Below, in pieces: positions 8,792-21,528 of a stretch of DNA of 34,363 nt. The DNA is from an uncultured Mycoplasma sp. (GTDB lineage Bacteria > Bacillota_I > Bacilli_A > RF39 > UBA660): contig CAMNSE010000012.1 of NCBI GenBank assembly GCA_946554525.1, positions 1 to 34,363 of the forward strand, read 5' to 3'. The translations under genes were made by a program, and so were the position numbers. The notes below the pieces were generated by a model. That model had not been told where the DNA came from. It ran no database searches and saw only the letters and a program-made list of their open reading frames with translations. How positions within the stretch are numbered: the stretch's first letter is position 1; the number at the start of each line of letters is the position of its first letter.

Positions 8792-11263
8792 ATGACGAAG
8801 AAGATTAAATATTTATTAAGTTTTATATTACCAATTAGTATATTTTTTATTATTTCTTGGATTTGTGGCTTTATTCCTTTTGGAGCATATTCTCATAATA
8901 TTTTTGATGCTTTTTTTGAATATCCTACCTTTATAATGGAACTTAGGAATATGCTTAGAGGTGCACAAAATATTTTTTATACTATGCATGGAGCTTTAGG
9001 AGTAAACTTTTTTAGTATACTAACTTTGTATGGTGGTAGTCCTCTTAATTTATTGTTTTATTTTTTTCCCCAAGATAAAATCTATTTATTTTATACCCTT
9101 TTAATCTATTTTAAAATAGGAGCATCTGGGTTTACAATGTATGTGTATTTAAATAGCTTAAGCACTAAATATAAAGATACATTCTGGAATATTGTCTTTG
9201 CTCTAATATATGCCTTGTCAGGATATGTTGTGGCTTTTAATATGCATGTTATGTGGATGGATGCATATTTATTATTACCGATTATCATTAAATATTTAGA
9301 TAGGCTTATTATTCATGAAGAAGGGACTATTTATGCATTTATGTTAGCTGCTGCTATAATTATAAATTATTATACAGGGTTCATGCTTTGTATATTTATG
9401 GTCATATATTTTATTTATAAGTCCCTTATAGTAAAAAAATTTACTAAAAATGTGATTAGGAAATTTTTGTTTTATTCGGTTATGGCTGGATTAATTTCTA
9501 CTGTCGTTTTAATTCCTAATCTAATTAATTTATTGCAGGGAAGATTTAGTAATTTAACAAAACCAAATTTATTTTCTGGAGACTTTTATACAATTTTTTC
9601 TTTAATATATAATATGTCAATTGGTTCCTTCGTTATAGGAGATAATTATAACTTTGGAAGTACAACAATTTACACAACTCTTTTCTCTTTAGTTTTGGTA
9701 ATTTATTTATTTTTTAATAAAAAGATAAGCAAAAGAGAAAAAATAATTACAGGCAGTGTTATCGCATTTTTTAATATATCTTTTAGCTTTAATCTTTTAG
9801 ATTTAGCCTGGAATATGTTTCAAAACCCTATATGGTGGAGTCATAGATATCAGTTTGTTTATATTTTCTTATTTATTGTGATTGCTTATGGATCTTTTGT
9901 AAGATTGGATGGAGTAAATATTGAGTCTAAAATAAAAAATATAATAATAATAGTATTTAGTATTTTTACGCTTCTATCTTTTTCTTATAAGGTTAAAGGA
10001 TTAGGTCTTTCAAATTTCTATATTTTCACATTGTTTGTAAGTTTAGTTTTATTTATTATTTATATGCATAAAATCAACAATAAAAAGATGTGGATAATTT
10101 TTATTTTATTAGAAATAGGACTAAATTCTTATATGCCTCTAACTATTCATAAAAAATTTAAATATGAAGAAATTACTCAGAGCTACAGGGATACTAAAAA
10201 AGTTATAGAGCAAATTGAAGATAGAGATAACTATCGGATTGTAAAGTGGGATTCTTATAGTGATGAAGGATTGCTTTTAGGATTTAATTCAGTTGAGCTT
10301 TTTAGTTCAAGCTATAATATGCAAAATGCTTTATTTATGGATAAAGTTAAAATTGAACGTTTATCGTTAAATAATCAAAGTATAAATAATGCTAATCCTC
10401 CAATGTTATCTTTGCTTGGAGTAAAGTATATGATTGGAGAAAGTGATTATTACTCTTGTAATGATGGAGTTTGTGAAAATAAATATGCTATGCCTTTTAT
10501 GTATCAAGTTTCCAAAAATGTTTTAAGTACGCAGTTGAATAGTAGTGATTATAAAGAAAATATTAATAGTATTTATAGCTCCCTCTTAAATAGAGAAGTT
10601 GATTTATTTGTTAAATTAAATTTGGAAGATATAGCTTATAATGATATGGAAGTAAATGAAGATGTAGTTGAAAATTATGGTGAAGATGCTAAATTTACTC
10701 TTATGTATAGATGTTTAGATGAAGCGTTACTGGTTTATAATACTCTTTACTATGAAGGCTTAAAACCAGAAATTTATATTAATGGAGAAAAGTTAGAAAA
10801 AGAGCTTGAATATGATAACTTAATTAGATTAAAGCCCCAAGATAAATTAGAGTTTGTATTTTTCTACAATAAAGAGGTAAATTATAAAAATATATCTAAA
10901 TCATTTTATATATTAAATATTAAAAAATATGAGGAGGCTATAAAAGAATTAAATAAAAATGTCAATTATATAAATTTAGAATCAGATAAAAGTATTTTAA
11001 AGGGTAGAATTAAGACTGAAGATGGGATTGTTCTTATCACATTGCCTTATGATAAAGGGATAAAAATAAAAGTTGATGGTAAAAATACAAATTATTTTAC
11101 AATATTTGATAATTTTCTAGGAATAAATGTTTCGCAAGGAGAACATATAATTGAAATAAATTATTTCCCTAGAGGATTAAAAATAGGTCTTATTATAAGC
11201 ATTTTATCATTGATTGGTCTTTGCTTGGTCGCCTTAATTCACAAAAAACGTAAAAAAAGTTAG
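8792..11263 (+). CDS. yfhO: YfhO-family polytopic membrane protein
   Basis: An 823-residue protein. The first 450 residues or so form about 12 membrane helices, a large extracytoplasmic domain follows (about 455-785), and a last helix is followed by the basic tail KKRKKS. The N-terminal region (helix, extracytoplasmic loop with ...DAFFEYPTFIMELRNMLRG..., then YGGSPLNLLFYFFPQ) is typical of YfhO. YfhO proteins are GT-C-fold transferases; in Bacillus and Listeria relatives they add sugars to teichoic acids outside the membrane, using lipid-linked sugars. This would match the LCP and PAP2 genes nearby, but the polymer is not known. The start has AAGGATG upstream and an extended -10 (TG-TGATAAT) at about 8757-8766. 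Confidence 0.85.
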   Translation: MTKKIKYLLSFILPISIFFIISWICGFIPFGAYSHNIFDAFFEYPTFIMELRNMLRGAQNIFYTMHGALGVNFFSILTLYGGSPLNLLFYFFPQDKIYLFYTLLIYFKIGASGFTMYVYLNSLSTKYKDTFWNIVFALIYALSGYVVAFNMHVMWMDAYLLLPIIIKYLDRLIIHEEGTIYAFMLAAAIIINYYTGFMLCIFMVIYFIYKSLIVKKFTKNVIRKFLFYSVMAGLISTVVLIPNLINLLQGRFSNLTKPNLFSGDFYTIFSLIYNMSIGSFVIGDNYNFGSTTIYTTLFSLVLVIYLFFNKKISKREKIITGSVIAFFNISFSFNLLDLAWNMFQNPIWWSHRYQFVYIFLFIVIAYGSFVRLDGVNIESKIKNIIIIVFSIFTLLSFSYKVKGLGLSNFYIFTLFVSLVLFIIYMHKINNKKMWIIFILLEIGLNSYMPLTIHKKFKYEEITQSYRDTKKVIEQIEDRDNYRIVKWDSYSDEGLLLGFNSVELFSSSYNMQNALFMDKVKIERLSLNNQSINNANPPMLSLLGVKYMIGESDYYSCNDGVCENKYAMPFMYQVSKNVLSTQLNSSDYKENINSIYSSLLNREVDLFVKLNLEDIAYNDMEVNEDVVENYGEDAKFTLMYRCLDEALLVYNTLYYEGLKPEIYINGEKLEKELEYDNLIRLKPQDKLEFVFFYNKEVNYKNISKSFYILNIKKYEEAIKELNKNVNYINLESDKSILKGRIKTEDGIVLITLPYDKGIKIKVDGKNTNYFTIFDNFLGINVSQGEHIIEINYFPRGLKIGLIISILSLIGLCLVALIHKKRKKS

Positions 11264-11279
11264 AAAAATAATATTGATG

Positions 11280-11308
11280 TTGATATTTTAATAAAAATCA
11301 GTTATAAT
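11280..11308 (+). promoter_or_regulatory. Promoter of the pilin-like operon
   Basis: TTGATA and a perfect TATAAT are 17 bases apart, 35 bases upstream of the first small pilin-like gene. It drives the unit 11343-13894. Confidence 0.7.
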
Positions 11309-11342
11309 AAAATATAGATAATAAAGGAGGATTTGATATTAA

Positions 11343-11570
11343 ATGAAAGAAGCGACAGGCGAACTTAATATGACTGTAATTACAGTAGTTGCTATTGCTG
11401 CTATAGGTGCATTCTTTTATGCATTTGTGTGGCCATCGTTAAAGACCAGTATTGATAATTCACAAAAATGTGCTAATGCAATTTGTACTAGTTGTTCAGG
11501 AAATAAATGTACTTGTACCTATATTAGTGGTAGTACGGAAAAAACCATAACATGTCCTAATAAGCAATAA
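11343..11570 (+). CDS. Small Cys-rich pilin-like protein 1
   Basis: A 75-residue protein with the N-terminal block MKEATGELN, a membrane helix (about 10-32, TVITVVAIAAIGAFFYAFVW) and a 40-residue outside domain with six Cys. It shares the N-terminal block and a WP turn after the helix with the next gene, so they are tandem duplicates. A short hydrophilic leader, one N-terminal helix and a small globular end are features of type IV-like pilins, but no standard prepilin site (G followed by Glu at +5) is present. The downstream TadZ-like gene supports a pilus role. AGGAGG lies 12 bases upstream, a rather long spacing. Confidence 0.65.
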   Translation: MKEATGELNMTVITVVAIAAIGAFFYAFVWPSLKTSIDNSQKCANAICTSCSGNKCTCTYISGSTEKTITCPNKQ

Positions 11571-11595
11571 TATAAATATAATTGGAGGTTAAAAA

Positions 11596-11835
11596 ATGAA
11601 AGAGGCAACAGGTGAGCTAAATACAACTGTAGTTGTAGTTTTATTGGTGGCTTTTTTGTCCTCTTTTTTCTTTGGAGTATTATGGCCTAATATTAGAGGT
11701 AATTTTTCAGCTAATACTAAATGTGATGAAGCTATTTGTGAGAAAGCTCCTAGAAGTGATGGTAAAACCGTTAATTGTACTTATAAAGAAAAAGATGGAA
11801 GTACTACTAATATAGTTTGCACTTGGAAGGGCTAG
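11596..11835 (+). CDS. Small Cys-rich pilin-like protein 2
   Basis: A 79-residue paralogue of the preceding gene: MKEATGELN, a helix (about 10-32) ending in VLWPNIRG, then a 45-residue domain with four Cys, the first two in the same KC...AIC spacing as in protein 1. A good GGAGG ribosome site lies upstream, 25 bases after the previous stop. Four Cys in an exported position suggest two disulfides. Probably a minor or major subunit of the same surface structure; function inferred from position and shape only. Confidence 0.65.
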   Translation: MKEATGELNTTVVVVLLVAFLSSFFFGVLWPNIRGNFSANTKCDEAICEKAPRSDGKTVNCTYKEKDGSTTNIVCTWKG

Positions 11836-11860
11836 ATGTAAAAGAAAAAGAGGTGGTTAA

Positions 11861-12394
11861 ATGAAAGAAGCTGTAGGTGGAATATCTTTATTTCAAATTG
11901 TTATGTTTTTTATCGTTTTATTTACAGGATATGTATGTCTTTCAATTAACTACTCAAAAGCTTATGGAATTAAAAATGAACTTTTAACGATTATAAAAAA
12001 TCAAGGTGGAGTTTGTACAGCAGATTCAGGAAACTGTTATAACTTTAAAGACATTGTAACTAGTTATCTATTAGATGTAGGATATCGTTCTACTGGCAAG
12101 TGTAATCGCGGTGGAGATAGTGATTGGGTTGGATATGATAGAAATGGTAACTTAACTAGCGATGATAAAGCCGCATTTTGTATTAAAGGTGTTCAAGACG
12201 GAACAAATAGTCAGTTATCACAAGCGGTTTATTATAAAGTTAAAGTATTCTATCAATTGGATCTACCTATTATTAATAGTATTTTCAATTTTACTGTATC
12301 AGGTGAAACTAGTAAGGTATATTCACCCAATGAATGCGACGATAATCCTCAAAGCTATTGTTGGTGTAATAATAGCTGTCAGGATGCAGGGTAA
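11861..12394 (+). CDS. Pilin-like protein 3, 177 residues
   Basis: It starts MKEAVGGIS, then a membrane helix (about 9-28) continuing into a charged helix (NYSKAYGIKNELLTIIKNQGG) as in TadE-like pseudopilins. The outside domain has about nine Cys, ending in a CWCNNSC cluster and a short tail. It pairs with the next gene in the shared segment (helix, LNYS/INYS, K-IKNE) and in the strand YYKVKVFYQLDLPIINSI..F.V.G.T before the tail. This points to a duplicated pseudopilin-like family. AGGTGG lies upstream. Confidence 0.65.
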   Translation: MKEAVGGISLFQIVMFFIVLFTGYVCLSINYSKAYGIKNELLTIIKNQGGVCTADSGNCYNFKDIVTSYLLDVGYRSTGKCNRGGDSDWVGYDRNGNLTSDDKAAFCIKGVQDGTNSQLSQAVYYKVKVFYQLDLPIINSIFNFTVSGETSKVYSPNECDDNPQSYCWCNNSCQDAG

Positions 12395-12403
12395 GGTGAT
12401 GAT

Positions 12404-12877
12404 ATGAGACAGACTGTTGGAGCTACATGGACTTTACAATTAGTAGTGGTATTTATTCTTTTATTTGTAGGGTACATTGTATTAACGTTAAATTATTCTA
12501 GAACAATAAAAATAAAAAATGAAATGATTAGTATTGTAGAAAAATATGATGGTATTACTGATCAATCAATTGGACTTTTAAATAACTTTCTTGTTTCATC
12601 AAACTATAATGCAAAAGGAAGCTGTGAAAATAAACAAGGAGTATATGGAGTAAAAATTTTAGAAGAAGGTAGAAATACAATAGAAGAAGCTGATGGAACT
12701 AATAGTTATTATTATTGTATAAGAAAGTACGAGGGTGCTAATAAAACTAATTATTATCAAATTACTTTATTTTACAAGTTTAATTTACCAGTTATAGGTG
12801 ATTTATCAAATTTTTCTGTAAAGGGATCAACAAGTAATTTTCAATCGCATGACAGACTACCATCAATTAGTAATTAG
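12404..12877 (+). CDS. Pilin-like protein 4, 157 residues
   Basis: Paralogue of protein 3: MRQTVGATW, a helix (about 10-29), LNYSRTIKIKNEMISIVEKYDG, then an outside domain with YYQITLFYKFNLPVIGDLSNFSVKGST near the end. It has only three Cys and lacks the Cys cluster of protein 3. It starts nine bases after the previous stop, with GGTGAT between. Likely a pseudopilin-like subunit assembled by the same machine. Confidence 0.65.
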   Translation: MRQTVGATWTLQLVVVFILLFVGYIVLTLNYSRTIKIKNEMISIVEKYDGITDQSIGLLNNFLVSSNYNAKGSCENKQGVYGVKILEEGRNTIEEADGTNSYYYCIRKYEGANKTNYYQITLFYKFNLPVIGDLSNFSVKGSTSNFQSHDRLPSISN

Positions 12878-12892
12878 AGAAGAGGAAGATGT

Positions 12893-13894
12893 ATGAACGT
12901 AATTGTATCAAATAAATATCAAAATATGTTAGCAACATTAGATATTGATGTTATTAAAAATATTAATGGAGAATATGAAGTAGAAGACTTAGTTGATATG
13001 TTTGCTAACTTTTATTTCAATAAAATAATTATTGATGTAACAGCTATTAGAAATTATCAAAATATTAAAACAATTCAAAAATTATCAGTTAATTTTGATC
13101 CTAATAAAATTATTTTACTATTAGATGATTCTGCAATGGTAAACAGTGGAGGATATTTATCTGGGCTTGTTTCTATGGGAATTTATAATTTTACAAGAAA
13201 TATTAATGCTGTAAAATTTTTAATCGATAATCCGAATTCTTATAAAGATGTGGCCCAATATCATAATTTAAATAATAGTGGTGAAGCTAATATAAATCCT
13301 GCAGCATTTGATACTTTTGCTGGTTCAGGGTCTGGAGGACTTAGAATTGTGGGATTTAAAAATGTAACAGACCATGCAGGTGCAACTACTCTTGTTTATA
13401 TGTTAAAAAGACATTTAGAAGTAGCATATAATGTTGTTGCAATTGAGGTGGATAAAGAAGATTTTAAATATTTAAATGATAAATCATTAAAATCTTGTTC
13501 TTCACTAGATTTGTCTTTTAATATTGCTAATAATCCTGAGGCTGAAGTTATACTTGTAGATTTAAATGAAGTTGATCAAGATAACTTATGCAATGATGTA
13601 GTTTATTTAATAGAACCAGGACTAATTAAATTAAATAAACTTATAAGAAGAGATAGAGAAGCATTCTCAAAATTAAAAGATAAAAAAATAGTACTTAATA
13701 AAAGCATTTTAAATAGTAAAGATATTTCTGATTTTGAACATGAGTCAGATAGTAAAGTATTCTTTAATATTCCATATTTAGATGATAAAAAAGAACATGA
13801 ACAAATTTTAGATGACTTTTTAGTAGCTTTAGGATTTTCTAGATTAAATAGTAGTAATGGTGGAAAAGCAAAATTATTTAATATCTTTAAATAA
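12893..13894 (+). CDS. TadZ/CpaE-like protein with degenerate P-loop
   Basis: A 333-residue cytoplasmic protein. Residues 1-115 look like a receiver-type or atypical N-terminal domain (KIIIDVTAI, KIILLLDDSA). Residues 150-330 have the strand order of a ParA/MinD-type ATPase. At the P-loop position (about 154-170) the sequence is GFKNVTDHAGATTLVYMLKR: the Thr-Thr pair and following helix are kept, but the signature Lys residues of KGGxGKT are gone. This is what TadZ proteins with poor ATP binding look like; TadZ marks the cell pole and recruits the Tad machine. Last gene of the pilin-like operon and followed by a terminator. A second, canonical TadZ lies at 17615. Confidence 0.7.
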   Translation: MNVIVSNKYQNMLATLDIDVIKNINGEYEVEDLVDMFANFYFNKIIIDVTAIRNYQNIKTIQKLSVNFDPNKIILLLDDSAMVNSGGYLSGLVSMGIYNFTRNINAVKFLIDNPNSYKDVAQYHNLNNSGEANINPAAFDTFAGSGSGGLRIVGFKNVTDHAGATTLVYMLKRHLEVAYNVVAIEVDKEDFKYLNDKSLKSCSSLDLSFNIANNPEAEVILVDLNEVDQDNLCNDVVYLIEPGLIKLNKLIRRDREAFSKLKDKKIVLNKSILNSKDISDFEHESDSKVFFNIPYLDDKKEHEQILDDFLVALGFSRLNSSNGGKAKLFNIFK

Positions 13895-13925
13895 AGAATT
13901 ATAACTTAGTTATAGTTCTTTTTTA
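13895..13925 (+). terminator. Terminator of the pilin-like operon
   Basis: AGAATTATAACT pairs with AGTTATAGTTCT (one G-T wobble), followed by six T. Confidence 0.7.
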
Positions 13926-14004
13926 AAAGTTCTTAAAATACAAATTATTTTTGTTTTAAATTGAATAGAAAGCTGATATAATAATAGCATGAAAGGGATT
14001 TATT

Positions 14005-14751
14005 ATGAAAAGAAAAGTGTGCTTTATTATTTTAGTTATTTTTGTTTTATTTATTGCTGGTATTACAACTTATACTTTAATGAATAGAGAAATTAAAGAT
14101 ACAGTTACAAAAGTAAATAAAAAAGAGATAGAATTAGTAAATGAGAGTGTTAATAAAGATGAAGCCAGTATTCTTTTTAATGTTTATTTAAACGATGTAA
14201 GACACAAGTTTAAAATAACTTATGATATTGAAAAAAAGGAGAAGAAAAACTCATTAAAAATAAGTATTTATTTTGATGGTAGAAATATTTTAAATAAAGT
14301 AGTAATTACTGATTTAAAAGTCATGGATTTAAATAAAATTTGGAGCGATAAAAATTATGAAGTACTTAAAAAAGGAGTTAATCAGTTAAAAAGAGTTGTA
14401 AGTGAATCAAATGAATTTTTATTATTTGAAATAAGTAGTATTAACTCAAGCACAACACTAGAATACTATGTTTTAAATAGTGAAGGAATTTTACTTGATA
14501 AAAAAGGAATTTTAGCAAGAGATAGCAAAAAGATTTACGAAAGCGAAAGTGGAGGAGCGTTAAATATTTTTTATGATGATGCTTATTTAATGGCTAAATT
14601 AGATGGTGATACTATTTTTGCTTTAGTTGAAAAAACAGAAAATAAAAAGTTAGTTATTGAAGAATATAAATATAAAATTAAACAAAATGCATTTGAAAAA
14701 GAACTTGTTATGACATATAATAATATTTTATTAAAGAATAATAAAAAATAA
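14005..14751 (+). CDS. Membrane-anchored extracytoplasmic protein, unknown
   Basis: I do not recognise this 248-residue protein. It has an uncleaved-looking N-terminal membrane helix (about 5-24, with no lipoprotein Cys in place) and then a mainly beta-type outside domain with no Cys, rich in Lys, Asp and Ser. A TATAAT at 13977-13982 and AAGGGA before the ATG mark the start of a new unit that continues into obg 13 bases later. Position beside the pilin genes could mean an accessory envelope role, but its operon partner is obg, so this is open. Confidence 0.65.
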   Translation: MKRKVCFIILVIFVLFIAGITTYTLMNREIKDTVTKVNKKEIELVNESVNKDEASILFNVYLNDVRHKFKITYDIEKKEKKNSLKISIYFDGRNILNKVVITDLKVMDLNKIWSDKNYEVLKKGVNQLKRVVSESNEFLLFEISSINSSTTLEYYVLNSEGILLDKKGILARDSKKIYESESGGALNIFYDDAYLMAKLDGDTIFALVEKTENKKLVIEEYKYKIKQNAFEKELVMTYNNILLKNNKK

Positions 14752-16672: not shown

Positions 16673-16695
16673 TAAATATGATAAGGGTGATTGTG

Positions 16696-16899
16696 ATGGG
16701 TAAGCGTGGCCAAGCATTAGTTGAATATATTTTAATCATTGCCTTAATTAGTGTAATTGCTATTGCATTAGTCAATTATTTGGGAGGCTATTTAAAAGAT
16801 GCTATGGTCAAAGTCTCTTGTGGGATATCTGGAGAAGAATATGTAAAAGGTGATAAACCTGGTAATGCTTACTGTGAAGAAAAGAATAAAGAGGTGTAA
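16696..16899 (+). CDS. Flp-type pilin
   Basis: A 67-residue prepilin. The ATG at 16696 has AAGGGTGA five bases upstream and gives a five-residue leader MGKRG ending at a perfect Flp processing site (G, then QALVEY with Glu at +5 and Tyr at +6). The hydrophobic helix (about 10-32) and a short outside end with two Cys follow. This is the main building block of Tad pili; a TadV-type peptidase, not found in this window, would cut after Gly5. First gene of the operon 16696-21528. Confidence 0.88.
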   Translation: MGKRGQALVEYILIIALISVIAIALVNYLGGYLKDAMVKVSCGISGEEYVKGDKPGNAYCEEKNKEV

Positions 16900-16904
16900 A
16901 GGGA

Positions 16905-17246
16905 ATGAAGAAGGGGCAAGCACTAGTAGAATTTATCATTATATTGCCTGTTTTTTTAATACTCATGTTAGGTATTTTCGATATGGGTAGAATTCTTTAT
17001 ACTAAAATTTCTTTAGAAGGAAAGTTGACAGAGGCAATAACCTTATTTGATGGGGGAAAAACAGATACAGAGATTAGTGATAAGCTAGAGTTATCAAAAG
17101 AAAAATCAAAATTAGAAATTTCTGAAAAAGAAAGTGATGTCAAATTCACTTTAGAAAAAGATATCGATATTATTACACCGGGATTAAATCTTATTTTTGA
17201 TAATCCTTATTCAGTAAAAGTTAGTAGGAATATAGCACATGAATAA
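16905..17246 (+). CDS. TadE-like pseudopilin
   Basis: A 113-residue protein with the leader MKKG, then QALVEF (the same cut site as the pilin), a helix (about 9-29) and the TadE-typical stretch FDMGRILYTKISLEGKLTEA. The outside domain is short and has no Cys. TadE pseudopilins are minor components needed for pilus assembly. It starts five bases after the pilin stop, with GAGGTG upstream, and overlaps the next gene by eight bases. Confidence 0.82.
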   Translation: MKKGQALVEFIIILPVFLILMLGIFDMGRILYTKISLEGKLTEAITLFDGGKTDTEISDKLELSKEKSKLEISEKESDVKFTLEKDIDIITPGLNLIFDNPYSVKVSRNIAHE

Positions 17247-17598
17247 GCGAGGTCAGACATTGATTATTTTTGTAGTTTTAATTCCGTTATTTCTTGGGAT
17301 AATTGCGTTAGTTGTGGATACTGGTGTAATTATACATGAAAAAGTGCAAGGGACAGAAGTTGCTAAAACGATTATACAAGATAGTATGAATAAAAGTGAG
17401 GAAGATATTTTAGCATTATGTCGAAAAAACGATGTAAATGAAGAAAACTTAATAATCTTATCTAGAGAGAATGAAATTACAATCAAAAATGAATATGAAA
17501 TCGATAGTATTTTTGGCTCTGTTATTGGTATAAAAAAGTATAAAATAAAAATAGATGTTACAGGAATAAACACAGAAAATAAAATAAAATTTGAATAA
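17239..17598 (+). CDS. TadE/TadG-like pseudopilin
   Basis: A 119-residue protein with the leader MNKRG then QTLIIFVVLIPLFLGIIAL. It resembles the TadG/TadE N-terminus (Gln, Thr after Gly, and VDTG followed by a helix), but the +5 residue is Ile rather than Glu, as is common for TadG-type proteins. The outside part is short compared with full TadG proteins, which carry a large von Willebrand-like domain; here that domain is absent. It overlaps the TadE gene by eight bases, so they are coupled. Confidence 0.72.
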   Translation: MNKRGQTLIIFVVLIPLFLGIIALVVDTGVIIHEKVQGTEVAKTIIQDSMNKSEEDILALCRKNDVNEENLIILSRENEITIKNEYEIDSIFGSVIGIKKYKIKIDVTGINTENKIKFE

Positions 17599-17614
17599 AA
17601 AGTTGGTGAATAAA

Positions 17615-18382
17615 ATGAATAATAAGGGAGTATCAATTTGTATTACATCTGCTAAGGGTGGAGTAGGAAAAACAACAACAACGCTAAATCTAGCTGGTAT
17701 CTATGAAAAACTAAATAAAAAAGTTTTAATAATTGATTTAGATCTAGCTAGTGGGGGAATTAGTGCGGCACTTAATACTCCATCAAATAAAAGCGTTTAT
17801 ACTTTAGTTGATGATTATAATAATAATCGTTATCGTGATTTTAAAAACTATGTTGTTTCTTATGATTCTTTTATTGATATTTTATCCAGTCCTAAAGATC
17901 CTAGACAAGCAAGTAAGATCGATTCAAAATATATTGAGATTATTTTAGATAAAGCAGTATTCAATTATGATGTCGTTTTAATTGATACAACTCATAGTTT
18001 TAATGAATTTAATATTAATGCTATGGATTTAGTAGATAATATTATTCTTATCATGACAAATGATCCACTGGATTTAAAAAATATGCGTAGTATGATATCA
18101 GTTTTAAAAGATGTTAATTATGACCATTATAAAGTTATTCTAAATGAAAGCATTTTGCCATTTAAAAAATATTTTAGTATTTATGATATTAAAAATATTA
18201 TAAAAAATAATATTGATTATGTTTTATCTAGTGATTTTTATATTAAAAATATAGATAGTTTTGTTATGAACGGTAAAATAGTAACATTACAAGATAAAGT
18301 TGGTACTTTTTTTGCAAAAGATTATACTACGCTTATGGGACTTGCTACTGATTTATATATTAAGGAGGAGGACCATATATGA
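17615..18382 (+). CDS. tadZ: TadZ/CpaE-type ATPase (ParA/MinD family)
   Basis: A 255-residue cytoplasmic P-loop ATPase. The deviant Walker A KGGVGKTTT lies at 14-22, followed by VLIIDLDLASG (Walker A'-type Asp) and DVVLIDTTHS (Walker B). The ATG at 17615 follows GGTGAATAAA; a TTG 24 bases upstream lacks a ribosome site and overlaps the previous stop. TadZ places the Tad system in the cell and supports assembly. Its stop overlaps the ATG of cpaF by four bases. It has no N-terminal receiver domain, unlike the TadZ-like protein at 12893, so the two may split the job. Confidence 0.85.
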   Translation: MNNKGVSICITSAKGGVGKTTTTLNLAGIYEKLNKKVLIIDLDLASGGISAALNTPSNKSVYTLVDDYNNNRYRDFKNYVVSYDSFIDILSSPKDPRQASKIDSKYIEIILDKAVFNYDVVLIDTTHSFNEFNINAMDLVDNIILIMTNDPLDLKNMRSMISVLKDVNYDHYKVILNESILPFKKYFSIYDIKNIIKNNIDYVLSSDFYIKNIDSFVMNGKIVTLQDKVGTFFAKDYTTLMGLATDLYIKEEDHI

Positions 18383-19827
18383 GACAATCATTAAGAAATG
18401 CTTTTGATATAGCTGTAAAAACAAAGAAGCAAGAAATTTTAACAGATTATGAAATATTTCCCGATAAAGCTTTACTTGATAAATTAAGAACGGAAATTGT
18501 AGAAAATTTAATAGACCATGAAATGCCTAGCGATCTAACATTAAATGAATGGATTAATGATGTTGTAGATAAATCAATTGAAGGATATGATTTATCTAAT
18601 CTAGAAAGAAGTCATTTATTTAATTTAATTGATAATGAAATAAATGGATATGGGCCAATTAGTGAGCTTTTAGAGGATGATAATATTACCGAAATAATGG
18701 TCAATTCACCTAATGAAATATATATTGAAATTGATGGTGTGTTAACACGTGATGATAGCGTTTCTTTCATTAATGATGAGCATATTATAAGAACTATTCA
18801 GAGGCTTATTCAACCTATGGGAAGAACAATAGATGCTACAAATCCCATGGTTGATTCAAGACTAATAGACGGTTCTCGTATTAATGCTGTAATTCCACCA
18901 CTTTCTACTAAAGGTCCAGTTGTTACAATTCGTAAGTTTAAAGAATCAATGACTAATATTGATGAATTAATTAGAATTGGGTCACTTACTCCTTATATGG
19001 CCAGATTTTTAGATGCTGCGGTAAGAGGAAAAGCGAATATGATTATTTGTGGAGGTACTGGCTCAGGTAAATCTACTCTTTTAAATATCTTAAGCAGTTT
19101 TATAGGTGATAAAGAACGTATTATTACAATTGAAGATGCTGCGGAGCTTCGCTTAAATCAAAGCCATGTAATTTCACTTGAGACTAGAACAATGAATTAT
19201 GATGCAAGTGGAGAAATCACAATTCGTGATTTAGTAATTAATTCGCTTCGGATGAGGCCAGATAGAATAATTGTTGGAGAAGTTCGAGGAAAAGAAGCTT
19301 TTGATATGCTTCAAGCGATGAATACCGGACATGATGGATCACTTACAACACTTCATGCAAATGGACCTCAAGATGCCCTTAATAGATTAGAAACAATGGT
19401 TTTAATGTCGGGGCTTGAAATTCCAATAAAAGCTGTAAGAGAATACATTGTAAGTGCAGTAGATATTATTGTTAATATTGAACGTATGAGTGATGGAAGA
19501 AGAAAGGTTGCTAGTATTTCAGAATTAGAAAATTTTAACGGAGAAGAAATTAAATTAAAAGAAATATTCTCGTTTAAACAAATTGGATTAACTGATAAAG
19601 GCGAAGTTGATGGAGAATTCATACTTCATGATGGTGTCCCTAAAGTTTATAAAAAAATAAAAGCAAGAGGTATTAATGATATTGATGATATATTCTTTCC
19701 TGAGGTAGAAGTAGAAAAAGAAAAAATAAAAGAAGAAGATAAAAAGCAAGAGATAAAGGAAGAAAAAAAAGAGCCACCTGTATATTATTTTAAAGGAAAA
19801 TATGAAGATTTAACAGAAAAAGAATAG
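18379..19827 (+). CDS. cpaF: Tad pilus assembly ATPase CpaF/TadA
   Basis: A 482-residue hexameric secretion ATPase that powers pilus extension and, in Tad systems, retraction. The N-terminal domain (1-200) has the CpaF blocks EIMVNSPNEIYIE, MGRTIDATNPMVD and RLIDGSRINAVIPP. Walker A is GGTGSGKST (225-233), the Asp box ITIEDAAEL follows, Walker B is RPDRIIVGEVRG (about 293-304), and the His box is LTTLHANGP. After about residue 430 there is an unusual Lys/Glu-rich low-complexity stretch (VEKEKIKEEDKKQEIKEEKK), a likely flexible tail. AAGGAGGAGG precedes the ATG. Downstream tadB starts 10 bases later. Confidence 0.95.
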   Translation: MRQSLRNAFDIAVKTKKQEILTDYEIFPDKALLDKLRTEIVENLIDHEMPSDLTLNEWINDVVDKSIEGYDLSNLERSHLFNLIDNEINGYGPISELLEDDNITEIMVNSPNEIYIEIDGVLTRDDSVSFINDEHIIRTIQRLIQPMGRTIDATNPMVDSRLIDGSRINAVIPPLSTKGPVVTIRKFKESMTNIDELIRIGSLTPYMARFLDAAVRGKANMIICGGTGSGKSTLLNILSSFIGDKERIITIEDAAELRLNQSHVISLETRTMNYDASGEITIRDLVINSLRMRPDRIIVGEVRGKEAFDMLQAMNTGHDGSLTTLHANGPQDALNRLETMVLMSGLEIPIKAVREYIVSAVDIIVNIERMSDGRRKVASISELENFNGEEIKLKEIFSFKQIGLTDKGEVDGEFILHDGVPKVYKKIKARGINDIDDIFFPEVEVEKEKIKEEDKKQEIKEEKKEPPVYYFKGKYEDLTEKE

Positions 19828-19837
19828 AGAGGTTAAG

Positions 19838-20833
19838 ATGAATGGAGTAAAGTTTCTACAACTTTTATTTAGTGTAGTTACTGTAGGAGTAATTTTATTA
19901 TTACTCCGTCTTTCACGTACTTTAAGATATGAAAAAAGAATTGATGCCTTTTCTATTTCCTCTATAAGTGAAAAGGAAGTCTCGCTTTTTGATAGGATAA
20001 AAAGTATCATATGGTTGATTGTAAGAAAAAATTCTTATATTCTTAGTAAAAGTGCTGTATTAACAAAATATAGTCTAGGATATGAAAAATATATAAATTT
20101 TGAAGATAGAGAGAAAAAAGAAGGTATTGATTATGTATCATTTAAATTTTTTCTTACTTTTGTTGTACTTATTTTAAGTTTAATTACTTTTATTTTTCAT
20201 TTTAAAACATTTAATGTAGGCATATTACTTATTTTACTTTTAATCACGTTCTTTTTGCCAGATATATTCTTAAAAATAGAATTTACTAAAAAAAGAAAAA
20301 GAATAGAAGAAGATCTATTAAAAGCAATTATTATTATGAATAATGCTTTTCAAAGTGGTAGAAATATTATGCAAGCTATTGAAATTGTGAAGAAAGAATT
20401 AGATGGGCCAATAGAAGATGAATTTAAAAAGATTTATTTAGATATAACTTATGGACTTAGTTTAGATGTTGTATTTAATCGTTTTTATGAACGTGTTAAA
20501 ATAGAAGATGCTAAGTATATTACCACAAGTCTTACACTATTAAATCGAACTGGTGGAGATATTATAAAAATATTTTCAATGATAGAGAAATCTATTTTTG
20601 ATAAGAAGAATTTAAAAAATGAACTTAATAGTTTAACAGCATCTAGTAGATTTGTATTTAAGTTTTTAATAGGCTTGCCAATATTTTTTTCATTATTAAT
20701 ATTTATCTTAAATCCAAGTTATTTTAATCCATTTTTTACTACTGGTGTAGGCATAGCTATCTTTATTACAATTATTGCTTTATATGTTTTATATATATTA
20801 GCAATAAGAAAAATATTAGAGGTGAAGTTATAA
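19838..20833 (+). CDS. tadB: Tad inner membrane platform protein TadB
   Basis: A 331-residue membrane protein with one N-terminal helix (about 5-24), a charged stretch, two helices (about 104-145), a cytoplasmic T2SS-F domain (about 150-275; the segment EEDLLKAIIIMNNAFQSGRNIMQAIEIV is typical) and two C-terminal helices (about 278-300 and 305-325). With TadC it forms the platform on which CpaF acts. GAGGT lies upstream. It ends in TAATG, sharing one base with tadC. Confidence 0.88.
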   Translation: MNGVKFLQLLFSVVTVGVILLLLRLSRTLRYEKRIDAFSISSISEKEVSLFDRIKSIIWLIVRKNSYILSKSAVLTKYSLGYEKYINFEDREKKEGIDYVSFKFFLTFVVLILSLITFIFHFKTFNVGILLILLLITFFLPDIFLKIEFTKKRKRIEEDLLKAIIIMNNAFQSGRNIMQAIEIVKKELDGPIEDEFKKIYLDITYGLSLDVVFNRFYERVKIEDAKYITTSLTLLNRTGGDIIKIFSMIEKSIFDKKNLKNELNSLTASSRFVFKFLIGLPIFFSLLIFILNPSYFNPFFTTGVGIAIFITIIALYVLYILAIRKILEVKL

Positions 20834-21528
20834 TGAGTGGTTTAGCAAAAAAAATATATTCTAAAAAAACAATAGACCGTATGGATAAGAAAATAAAACT
20901 ATTAGGAGTTAATTCAGGATATAAAACTAATACATTCTTAAATATTAGATTGATTGTTTCAATTTTATTATTTGTAATTCTTTTATTTACTAGTGATATA
21001 GGATATATACTAGCTCCTTTATGTACTATTATTTTATATATTTTATCTGAACTTATTTTACTTGATTATCCAATAAAAAAACGTGAGAAAAAATTAGAAA
21101 AAGAGGCCTTGTTCTTTTTTGAAATATTAACATTAACACTAGAGAGTGGTAGAAATTTAAAACATTCACTTGATTTAACGGTAGAAAATGTTAATTCTGA
21201 AATATCGGATGAGTTTAAAAAAATGCTTGCAGAAGTAAAGTTAGGTAAAAGCTTAAACGAAGCAATGGAATCATTAAAAGAAAGAATTCCTAGTGAAAAT
21301 ATTAATAATGCCATTTTAAATATGATGGAGTCAAATACATTTGGAAATAGCATTATTGATTCTATGTATAATCAAATAGATTTTTTAAGAGAAAAACAAA
21401 TGCTAGAGGTAAAATCTACGATTGCGAAACTTCCAACAAAGGTAAGTATAATTAGTGTAATATTCTTTATTCCAATTATGATGTTACTAATATTAGCTCC
21501 AGTTTTGATTAATTATTTATTAAAATAA
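20833..21528 (+). CDS. tadC: Tad platform protein TadC
   Basis: A 231-residue partner of TadB with two N-terminal helices (about 36-75), one T2SS-F domain (ALFFFEILTLTLESGRNLKHSLDLTVENV), and a C-terminal helix (about 207-230). It is shorter than many TadC proteins but complete. The start codon overlaps the tadB stop. Last gene of the operon, followed by a terminator shared with the convergent rpmB. Confidence 0.86.
   Translation: MSGLAKKIYSKKTIDRMDKKIKLLGVNSGYKTNTFLNIRLIVSILLFVILLFTSDIGYILAPLCTIILYILSELILLDYPIKKREKKLEKEALFFFEILTLTLESGRNLKHSLDLTVENVNSEISDEFKKMLAEVKLGKSLNEAMESLKERIPSENINNAILNMMESNTFGNSIIDSMYNQIDFLREKQMLEVKSTIAKLPTKVSIISVIFFIPIMMLLILAPVLINYLLK

Follow-up and report, generated by a model that had tools for sequence, protein, structure and literature searches.

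A five-gene cassette from a gut bacterium probably encodes the subunits and positioning protein of a second Tad-like machine

The contig CAMNSE010000012.1 (assembly GCA_946554525.1, from an uncultured bacterium deposited as Mycoplasma sp.) was analyzed over 34,363 nucleotides, and this whole stretch is referred to here as the window. On its plus strand, five consecutive open reading frames (ORFs) form an operon at 11343-13894, comprising four genes for small single-helix proteins, p1 to p4, and a gene for a TadZ-like protein. We consider it likely that these five genes supply the subunits and hub of a second Tad-like (type IV filament-like) machine, distinct from the Flp-Tad pilus whose genes lie 3 kb downstream. 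The gene for p1 (11343-11570) encodes a presumed major pilin-like subunit of 75 residues with an MKEATGELN block, one helix, W30-P31 and six Cys, and p2 (11596-11835; 79 residues, four Cys) is its paralog, with 44% identity. The presumed minor pilin-like subunits p3 (11861-12394; 177 residues, MKEAVGG block, nine Cys) and p4 (12404-12877; 157 residues, MRQTVGATW block) are paralogs that align together. The fifth gene (12893-13894) encodes a protein of 333 residues with a receiver-like N-terminal alpha/beta domain and a ParA/MinD-fold domain that lacks the P-loop lysine. A first-pass annotation, made from the DNA letters alone, had described paralogs of 75-79 and 157-177 residues with an MKEA(T/V)G or MRQTVG block before one helix, and all of the ORFs are as described, with p4 having only two Cys.

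The assignment of the cassette to a second machine is based on its distribution among 51 other genomes of the same family, which span 32 genera and of which 41 have the cassette and 10 lack it; the statistics given here count related genomes as independent. The gene tadA2, encoding a CpaF-type ATPase, was present in 41/41 genomes with the cassette and in 3/10 without it (Fisher p 1e-6). DUF5411 was present in 40 and absent from one of the genomes with the cassette, and present in four and absent from six of those without (p 7.5e-5), and it lies on the same strand as the TadZ-like gene, at most 12 kb away, in 34 of 40 genomes. Flp-type TadA showed no association, being present in 19 and absent from 22 genomes with the cassette and split five to five in those without it (p 1.0). 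Because the cassette tracks tadA2 and not the Flp-Tad operon 3 kb away, these patterns indicate that it belongs to the second machine and that the Flp operon is its neighbor, not its partner.

Alternatively, the Flp-Tad machine at 16678-21528 might assemble p1-p4 as accessory subunits; in favor of this is the adjacency of the two operons in the window and in eight further species of its genus (the Candidatus Caccenecus group). However, the cassette sits within the tadA2 operon in other genera, the Flp operon lies away from it in some Caccenecus loci (L102, L081, and L087), and more than half of the family genomes with the cassette have no Flp-type TadA; we regard this partnership as very improbable and rejected it on co-occurrence and synteny. 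The first-pass annotation had proposed that the four proteins were built by the same or a second machine, and of these the second is the one supported, by synteny and co-occurrence with tadA2, while the 22 genomes without Flp-type TadA speak against the same machine. It had also named cassette genes in relatives lacking any Tad gene as an observation that would count against it, and no such case was encountered.

A profile search with the TadZ-like protein across 84,980 reference genomes returned 398 related stretches, from which 80 loci were kept, 30 from the window's genus and 50 from other genera. The genus includes Candidatus Caccenecus avistercoris (L087), classed in Bacilli incertae sedis, and a literature search with the genus name returned no publication. 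In the other genera the genes form one operon, in the order DUF5411, cpaB, CpaF-type ATPase (tadA2), tadB2, tadC2, p1, p2, p3, p4, tadZ-like, and VirB2-like, and genes for large secreted proteins precede DUF5411 (50 non-genus loci, where the contig suffices, with few exceptions). Of the 43 non-Caccenecus loci whose sequence extends to the 5' side of the cassette, 37 have tadC2 immediately before it; at four of the six exceptions (L118, L123, L128, and L134) the two are separated by no more than a small additional or split ORF. The VirB2-like gene is next after the cassette in 37 of 47 non-Caccenecus loci. The same gene order was found at locus L035 of a sister-genus genome (G036), and G002 has it in an additional copy (L032).

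In the window's genome (G000) the motor half is on another contig (G000:C3:57768-71900, equivalent to L064:1769-15901), where the VirB2-like gene starts 91 bp after tadC2; this looks as though the cassette had been removed from the gap between these two genes, and in the window's genus it stands before obgE. DUF5411 at this locus, beside cpaB, tadA2, tadB2, and tadC2, matches PF17424 at 165-173 bits, and the closest solved structure to tadA2 is the Tad motor CpaF (E 3e-20). The sister-genus cpaB scored 27.7 bits against PF16976 (RcpC/CpaB), just below the 28.8 cut-off, and a PF16976 scan of the copy in the window's genome, which is 38% identical to it, gave no match.

The loci also differ in their surroundings. 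The motor locus on G000:C3 has two DUF5411 genes, each preceded by a gene for a secreted-type protein of very large size (1299 and 1232 residues, no Pfam match), and these two large proteins are candidate tip or surface proteins. The G002 copy (L032:33-7703, on G002:C18) is a second, divergent version of the whole system in one operon, carried by a species of the window's genus besides the split one. In several genera (L035:51-4122 and L108:11048-19878) the Tad-like operon continues into VirB2-like, VirB6-like, PrgI-like and probable VirB4-like genes, so that one array holds both Tad-like and T4SS-like genes, and at L121 and L131 the cassette is followed by only one or two VirB2-like genes.

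The four window proteins begin with MKEATGEL (p1 and p2), MKEAVGGI (p3), and MRQTVGAT (p4), with one hydrophobic helix directly after each. Common to p1 and p2 are the block M-K-E-A-T-G-E-L-N and a helix ending in a conserved Trp-Pro, and common to p3 and p4 are M-[KR]-[EQ]-x-x-G and a larger head. The DUF5411 proteins begin with a similar block, M-[KR]-E-[ST]-Y-W-G, in which Trp is at position 6. The number of Cys outside the helix is even in all 296 homologs (152/152 p1/p2, 71/71 p3, and 73/73 p4), with counts from 2 to 8. Based on these even counts, the ectodomain cysteines are likely to be fully paired as disulfides on the outer face, as the disulfide stabilization proposed in the first-pass annotation would have it, and such pairing would in turn imply an N-in, C-out topology for p1-p4. 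The AlphaFold2 model of p4 (predicted local distance difference test score 90.8, predicted TM-score 0.80) consists of helices at 4-47 and 53-65 followed by a four-strand beta-sheet head. Type 4 pilins are laid out as an N-terminal helix of about 50 residues and a head around an antiparallel beta-sheet (PMC10191384), and the long helix and sheet head predicted with confidence for p4 resemble this layout.

In samples of about 395 genomes each, relatives of p1 and p3/p4 are confined to the family, with few marginal matches elsewhere (E 1e-5 to 4e-4); the phylum-level search for p1 covered the window's own phylum, Clostridia excluded. These distant matches look like membrane-helix noise and were set aside. 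One orphan relative of p1, 74 residues long, is encoded away from the cassette (L034:7021-7245 and L033:684-908); it keeps the Cys-rich tail, lacks the MKEA block and starts with MKTVDLKSF.

The model of the TadZ-like protein has an alpha/beta domain at 1-115, termed receiver-like on the order of its secondary structure only, and a ParA/MinD fold at 150-317 (ParF, Z 14.0, root mean square deviation 3.0 over 160 aligned residues). The P-loop lysine is absent in 80/80 loci, which have an HAG[A/S]T[T/S]-type motif, with N for H at one locus; TadZ, too, is known for an atypical Walker A (PMC6668835). In its ParA/MinD fold, its N-terminal receiver-like domain and its atypical Walker A the protein agrees with TadZ. 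A profile comparison with solved TadZ gave no match, and we use the term TadZ-like for fold, gene context and likely job, and not for proven descent. The TadZ-like partner of the first-pass annotation stands in this sense, by fold model and context, and not as a member of a Pfam or NCBIfam family.

Several results weigh against a Tad-like machine. Neither p1-p4 nor the TadZ-like protein had a match above chance in Pfam, NCBIfam or PHROGs; TadE (PF07811) had no match among 58 p3/p4 members, and the sole match to PF04964 (Flp pilin) in the genome is the Flp pilin of the Flp-Tad operon (16678/16714). Comparisons with hhalign gave no support for p1 with Flp (6%), for p3/p4 with TadE (3%) or for the TadZ-like protein with the window's own Flp-operon TadZ (0.2%). 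The p4 model has no matching solved structure in the PDB (best Foldseek E 0.32, best VIA-align Z 4.5), and no family stands out for its head, the weak rows being mixed and including C. difficile PilW at Z 3.1. The pilin-like family proposed in the first-pass annotation is supported by the long helix and beta head of p4, but not by a PDB match to a known pilin fold. The products of tadB2 and tadC2 have no Pfam match and no hhalign support, and are labeled as platform proteins on position, size and hydrophobicity. Tad loci scattered over the genome are also described as very rare (PMC6668835). Finally, tadA2 is nearly equally close to VirB11 and CpaF, and the VirB2-like gene, in some genera with a whole set resembling a type IV secretion system (T4SS), follows the cassette, making a T4SS-like role possible.

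These last two points raise the alternative that the machine serves secretion or is T4SS-like; p1-p4 would then build a short pseudopilus or a conduit through the envelope, not a surface hair, and the true pilin would be the VirB2-like protein. The frequent position of the VirB2-like gene directly after the cassette (37 loci) and its stay with the motor half in Caccenecus are consistent with this, as are the VirB6-, PrgI- and other T4SS-like genes that come next in many genera and the naming of a related Clostridia operon as secretion-related by Miller and colleagues (PMC9523054). However, several genera with the cassette have one or two VirB2-like genes and no T4SS-like block (e.g., L121 and L131). 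The inventory also fits the Tad set, not a T4SS, in having CpaB, a tandem pair of platform-like proteins, a TadZ-like protein, and single-helix proteins of which two are small and two larger. We therefore regard a T4SS-like machine as unlikely.

The N-terminal signal of the subunits is unusual. A longer leader is impossible for p1, because an in-frame TAA is the codon directly before its ATG. As the first-pass annotation had observed, p1-p4 lack the Gly/+5 Glu site that is present in the window's Flp pilin at 16678 (MGKRG/QALVEY); position 11, corresponding to +5 of the mature helix, is T/A in p1, F in p3, and L/T/M/F in p4. Gly or Ala is described as the invariable last residue of a prepilin leader, and the +5 Glu is often, not always, present (PMC10191384). 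Gly6 occurs in all four window proteins and in 143/152 p1/p2, 61/77 p3, and 76/78 p4 homologs. It is replaced by Ser, Asn, Gln or Lys in 9/152 p1/p2 (S, Q or K in these nine) and 16/77 p3, and 13/77 p3 homologs have no Gly or Ala at all in residues 2-11; a leader ending in Gly or Ala is therefore found in the window's proteins and not across the family. Judging from these replacements, classical prepilin cleavage after Gly6 cannot be general across p1-p4. The different processing signal suggested in the first-pass annotation thus held as a different N-terminal signal, but a cut after Gly6 could not apply throughout the family.

Given that p3 does not conserve Gly6 and that none of the four has the usual Gly/+5 Glu site, we think that the N-terminus would be left uncut in at least p3, and probably in all four, with the short M-[KR]-[EQ] end retained. 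Position 3 is Glu or Gln in all p1, all p3 and most p4 homologs. We propose, tentatively, a filament-like machine that polymerizes never-cut subunits retaining their native M-[KR]-[EQ]-[AST], with Glu/Gln3 in place of the +5 Glu. If true, this would contradict the textbook rule of a cleavable prepilin leader ending in Gly or Ala. A point to the contrary is that a single prepilin peptidase is present in nearly every genome and might cut the members with Gly6; the window's genome has one PF01478 gene (G000:C2), and none is inside the cassette or motor operon. Genomes without a detected peptidase were rejected as proof of uncut pilins, the 5/48 misses fitting incomplete assemblies.

It could be, then, that p1-p4 are ordinary class III prepilins of the second machine, cut after Gly6 by this single PF01478 peptidase, with the +5 Glu simply missing and Ser6 members cut inefficiently or not at all. 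The prevalence of Gly6 would fit, a peptidase encoded apart and shared among systems is common (PMC6668835), and the +5 Glu is missing from some prepilins (PMC10191384). We nevertheless find this possibility doubtful, based on the 13 p3 homologs that lack both Gly and Ala where the leader should invariably end in one of them (PMC10191384), the S, Q or K at position 6 in nine p1/p2 homologs, the Trp at this position in the similar block of DUF5411 proteins, and the conservation from Met1 to position 9, which is unlike a variable leader.

In the second Tad-like machine as we envisage it, p1 and p2 would be the small major subunits, counterparts of Flp, and p3 and p4 the minor, initiating subunits, counterparts of TadE/TadF. 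All four would insert N-in/C-out by their single helix, with heads locked by disulfides, and a CpaF-type hexamer acting via tadB2/tadC2 would extract them from the membrane and assemble them as a filament or a short pseudopilus. The TadZ-like protein, with its ParA/MinD fold and no P-loop lysine, would position or assemble the machine in the cell, and E/Q at position 3 may, speculatively, take the role that the +5 Glu has in other pilins.

The system differs from the Tad/Flp pilus (type IVc; Aggregatibacter and Caulobacter) in that the cassette has no Flp, TadE or TadZ sequence-family match, the class III site is absent in several of its subunits, no peptidase gene accompanies it, DUF5411 and a VirB2-like gene are added, and the subunit and motor genes are split in the window's genus. 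One likeness to Tad is a TadA/CpaF-type extension ATPase that is co-inherited with the cassette subunits. Miller, Stern and Burstein (2022) predicted a DUF5411 "secretion-related" operon in Clostridia (Roseburia, Ruminococcus, and Eubacterium; PMC9523054), which, likened by its named genes only, similarly has a CpaF ATPase, a PilC/GspF-type protein and DUF5411 together and a large surface-type protein nearby, the GspF-type label of tadB2/tadC2 in this comparison being based on position only. No pilin-like MKEA family and no TadZ-like partner are named there. The same genomes also encode the Com pilus (ComG) of monoderms, which is a minimal type IV filament. Unlike the cassette it has canonical prepilins, and its ATPase (G000:C3:87913) is a distinct one with about 31% core identity to tadA2; apart from Flp-Tad, it is probably this pilus that makes most use of the single prepilin peptidase. 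PF18895/VirB2-like T4SS pilin families, which are unrelated to p1-p4, are matched weakly by the gene at the end of the machine operon.

By these comparisons we take the system to be a Tad-like machine with unrecognized subunits and an unusual N-terminal signal, whose motor half resembles the predicted DUF5411 operon. This reading assigns subunits and a positioning protein to a widespread, undescribed machine of gut bacteria, whose motor half was formerly only predicted to be secretion-related, and the machine offers a natural test case for whether type IV filaments can assemble without leader cleavage. Because the family is core to a lineage of small-genome gut Bacilli, the appendage probably has a central part in the way these bacteria attach to their surroundings or act on them.

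The cassette is probably a closed transcription unit, because it is bounded by its own promoter and a terminator hairpin. The promoter (11280-11308, plus strand; TTGATA-N17-TATAAT, matching 11 of 12 consensus positions) is 63 nucleotides upstream of p1 and is the single exact occurrence of this motif within the window. It recurs 58-73 nucleotides upstream of p1 in 23 of the 25 other readable species of the genus, a 24th having TTGCTA, and its conservation is independent of the upstream gene, which across these species encodes YfhO or a CPBP-type protein. At the operon end, a 13 bp terminator-like hairpin with a U-run (13893-13926, plus strand; -10.6 kcal/mol, z -4.5 vs. shuffles) was recovered by folding, its AT-rich stem having been missed by a GC-based terminator scan.

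Conservation of the cassette within the genus is far beyond chance, p1/p2 being present in 34/36 genomes and the TadZ-like gene in 33/36. Both are missing from G020 and G023; we rejected true loss in these two, as the G020 assembly is without the obgE region and the G023 contig begins 846 bp before obgE. G022, which lacks the TadZ-like gene only, is a genome that is 56% complete. Among the 30 loci of the genus, duf248 directly follows the cassette in all 27 whose contig continues, and obgE is next in many. In the window duf248 (14005-14751), which separates the cassette from obgE, encodes a protein with one helix; its position is conserved, but it has only 26-36% identity within the genus and evolves far faster than the neighboring genes. 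On the other side, a gene for a yfhO-type membrane protein (8792-11263) lies just before the conserved promoter, and only a subset of species in the genus carries it.

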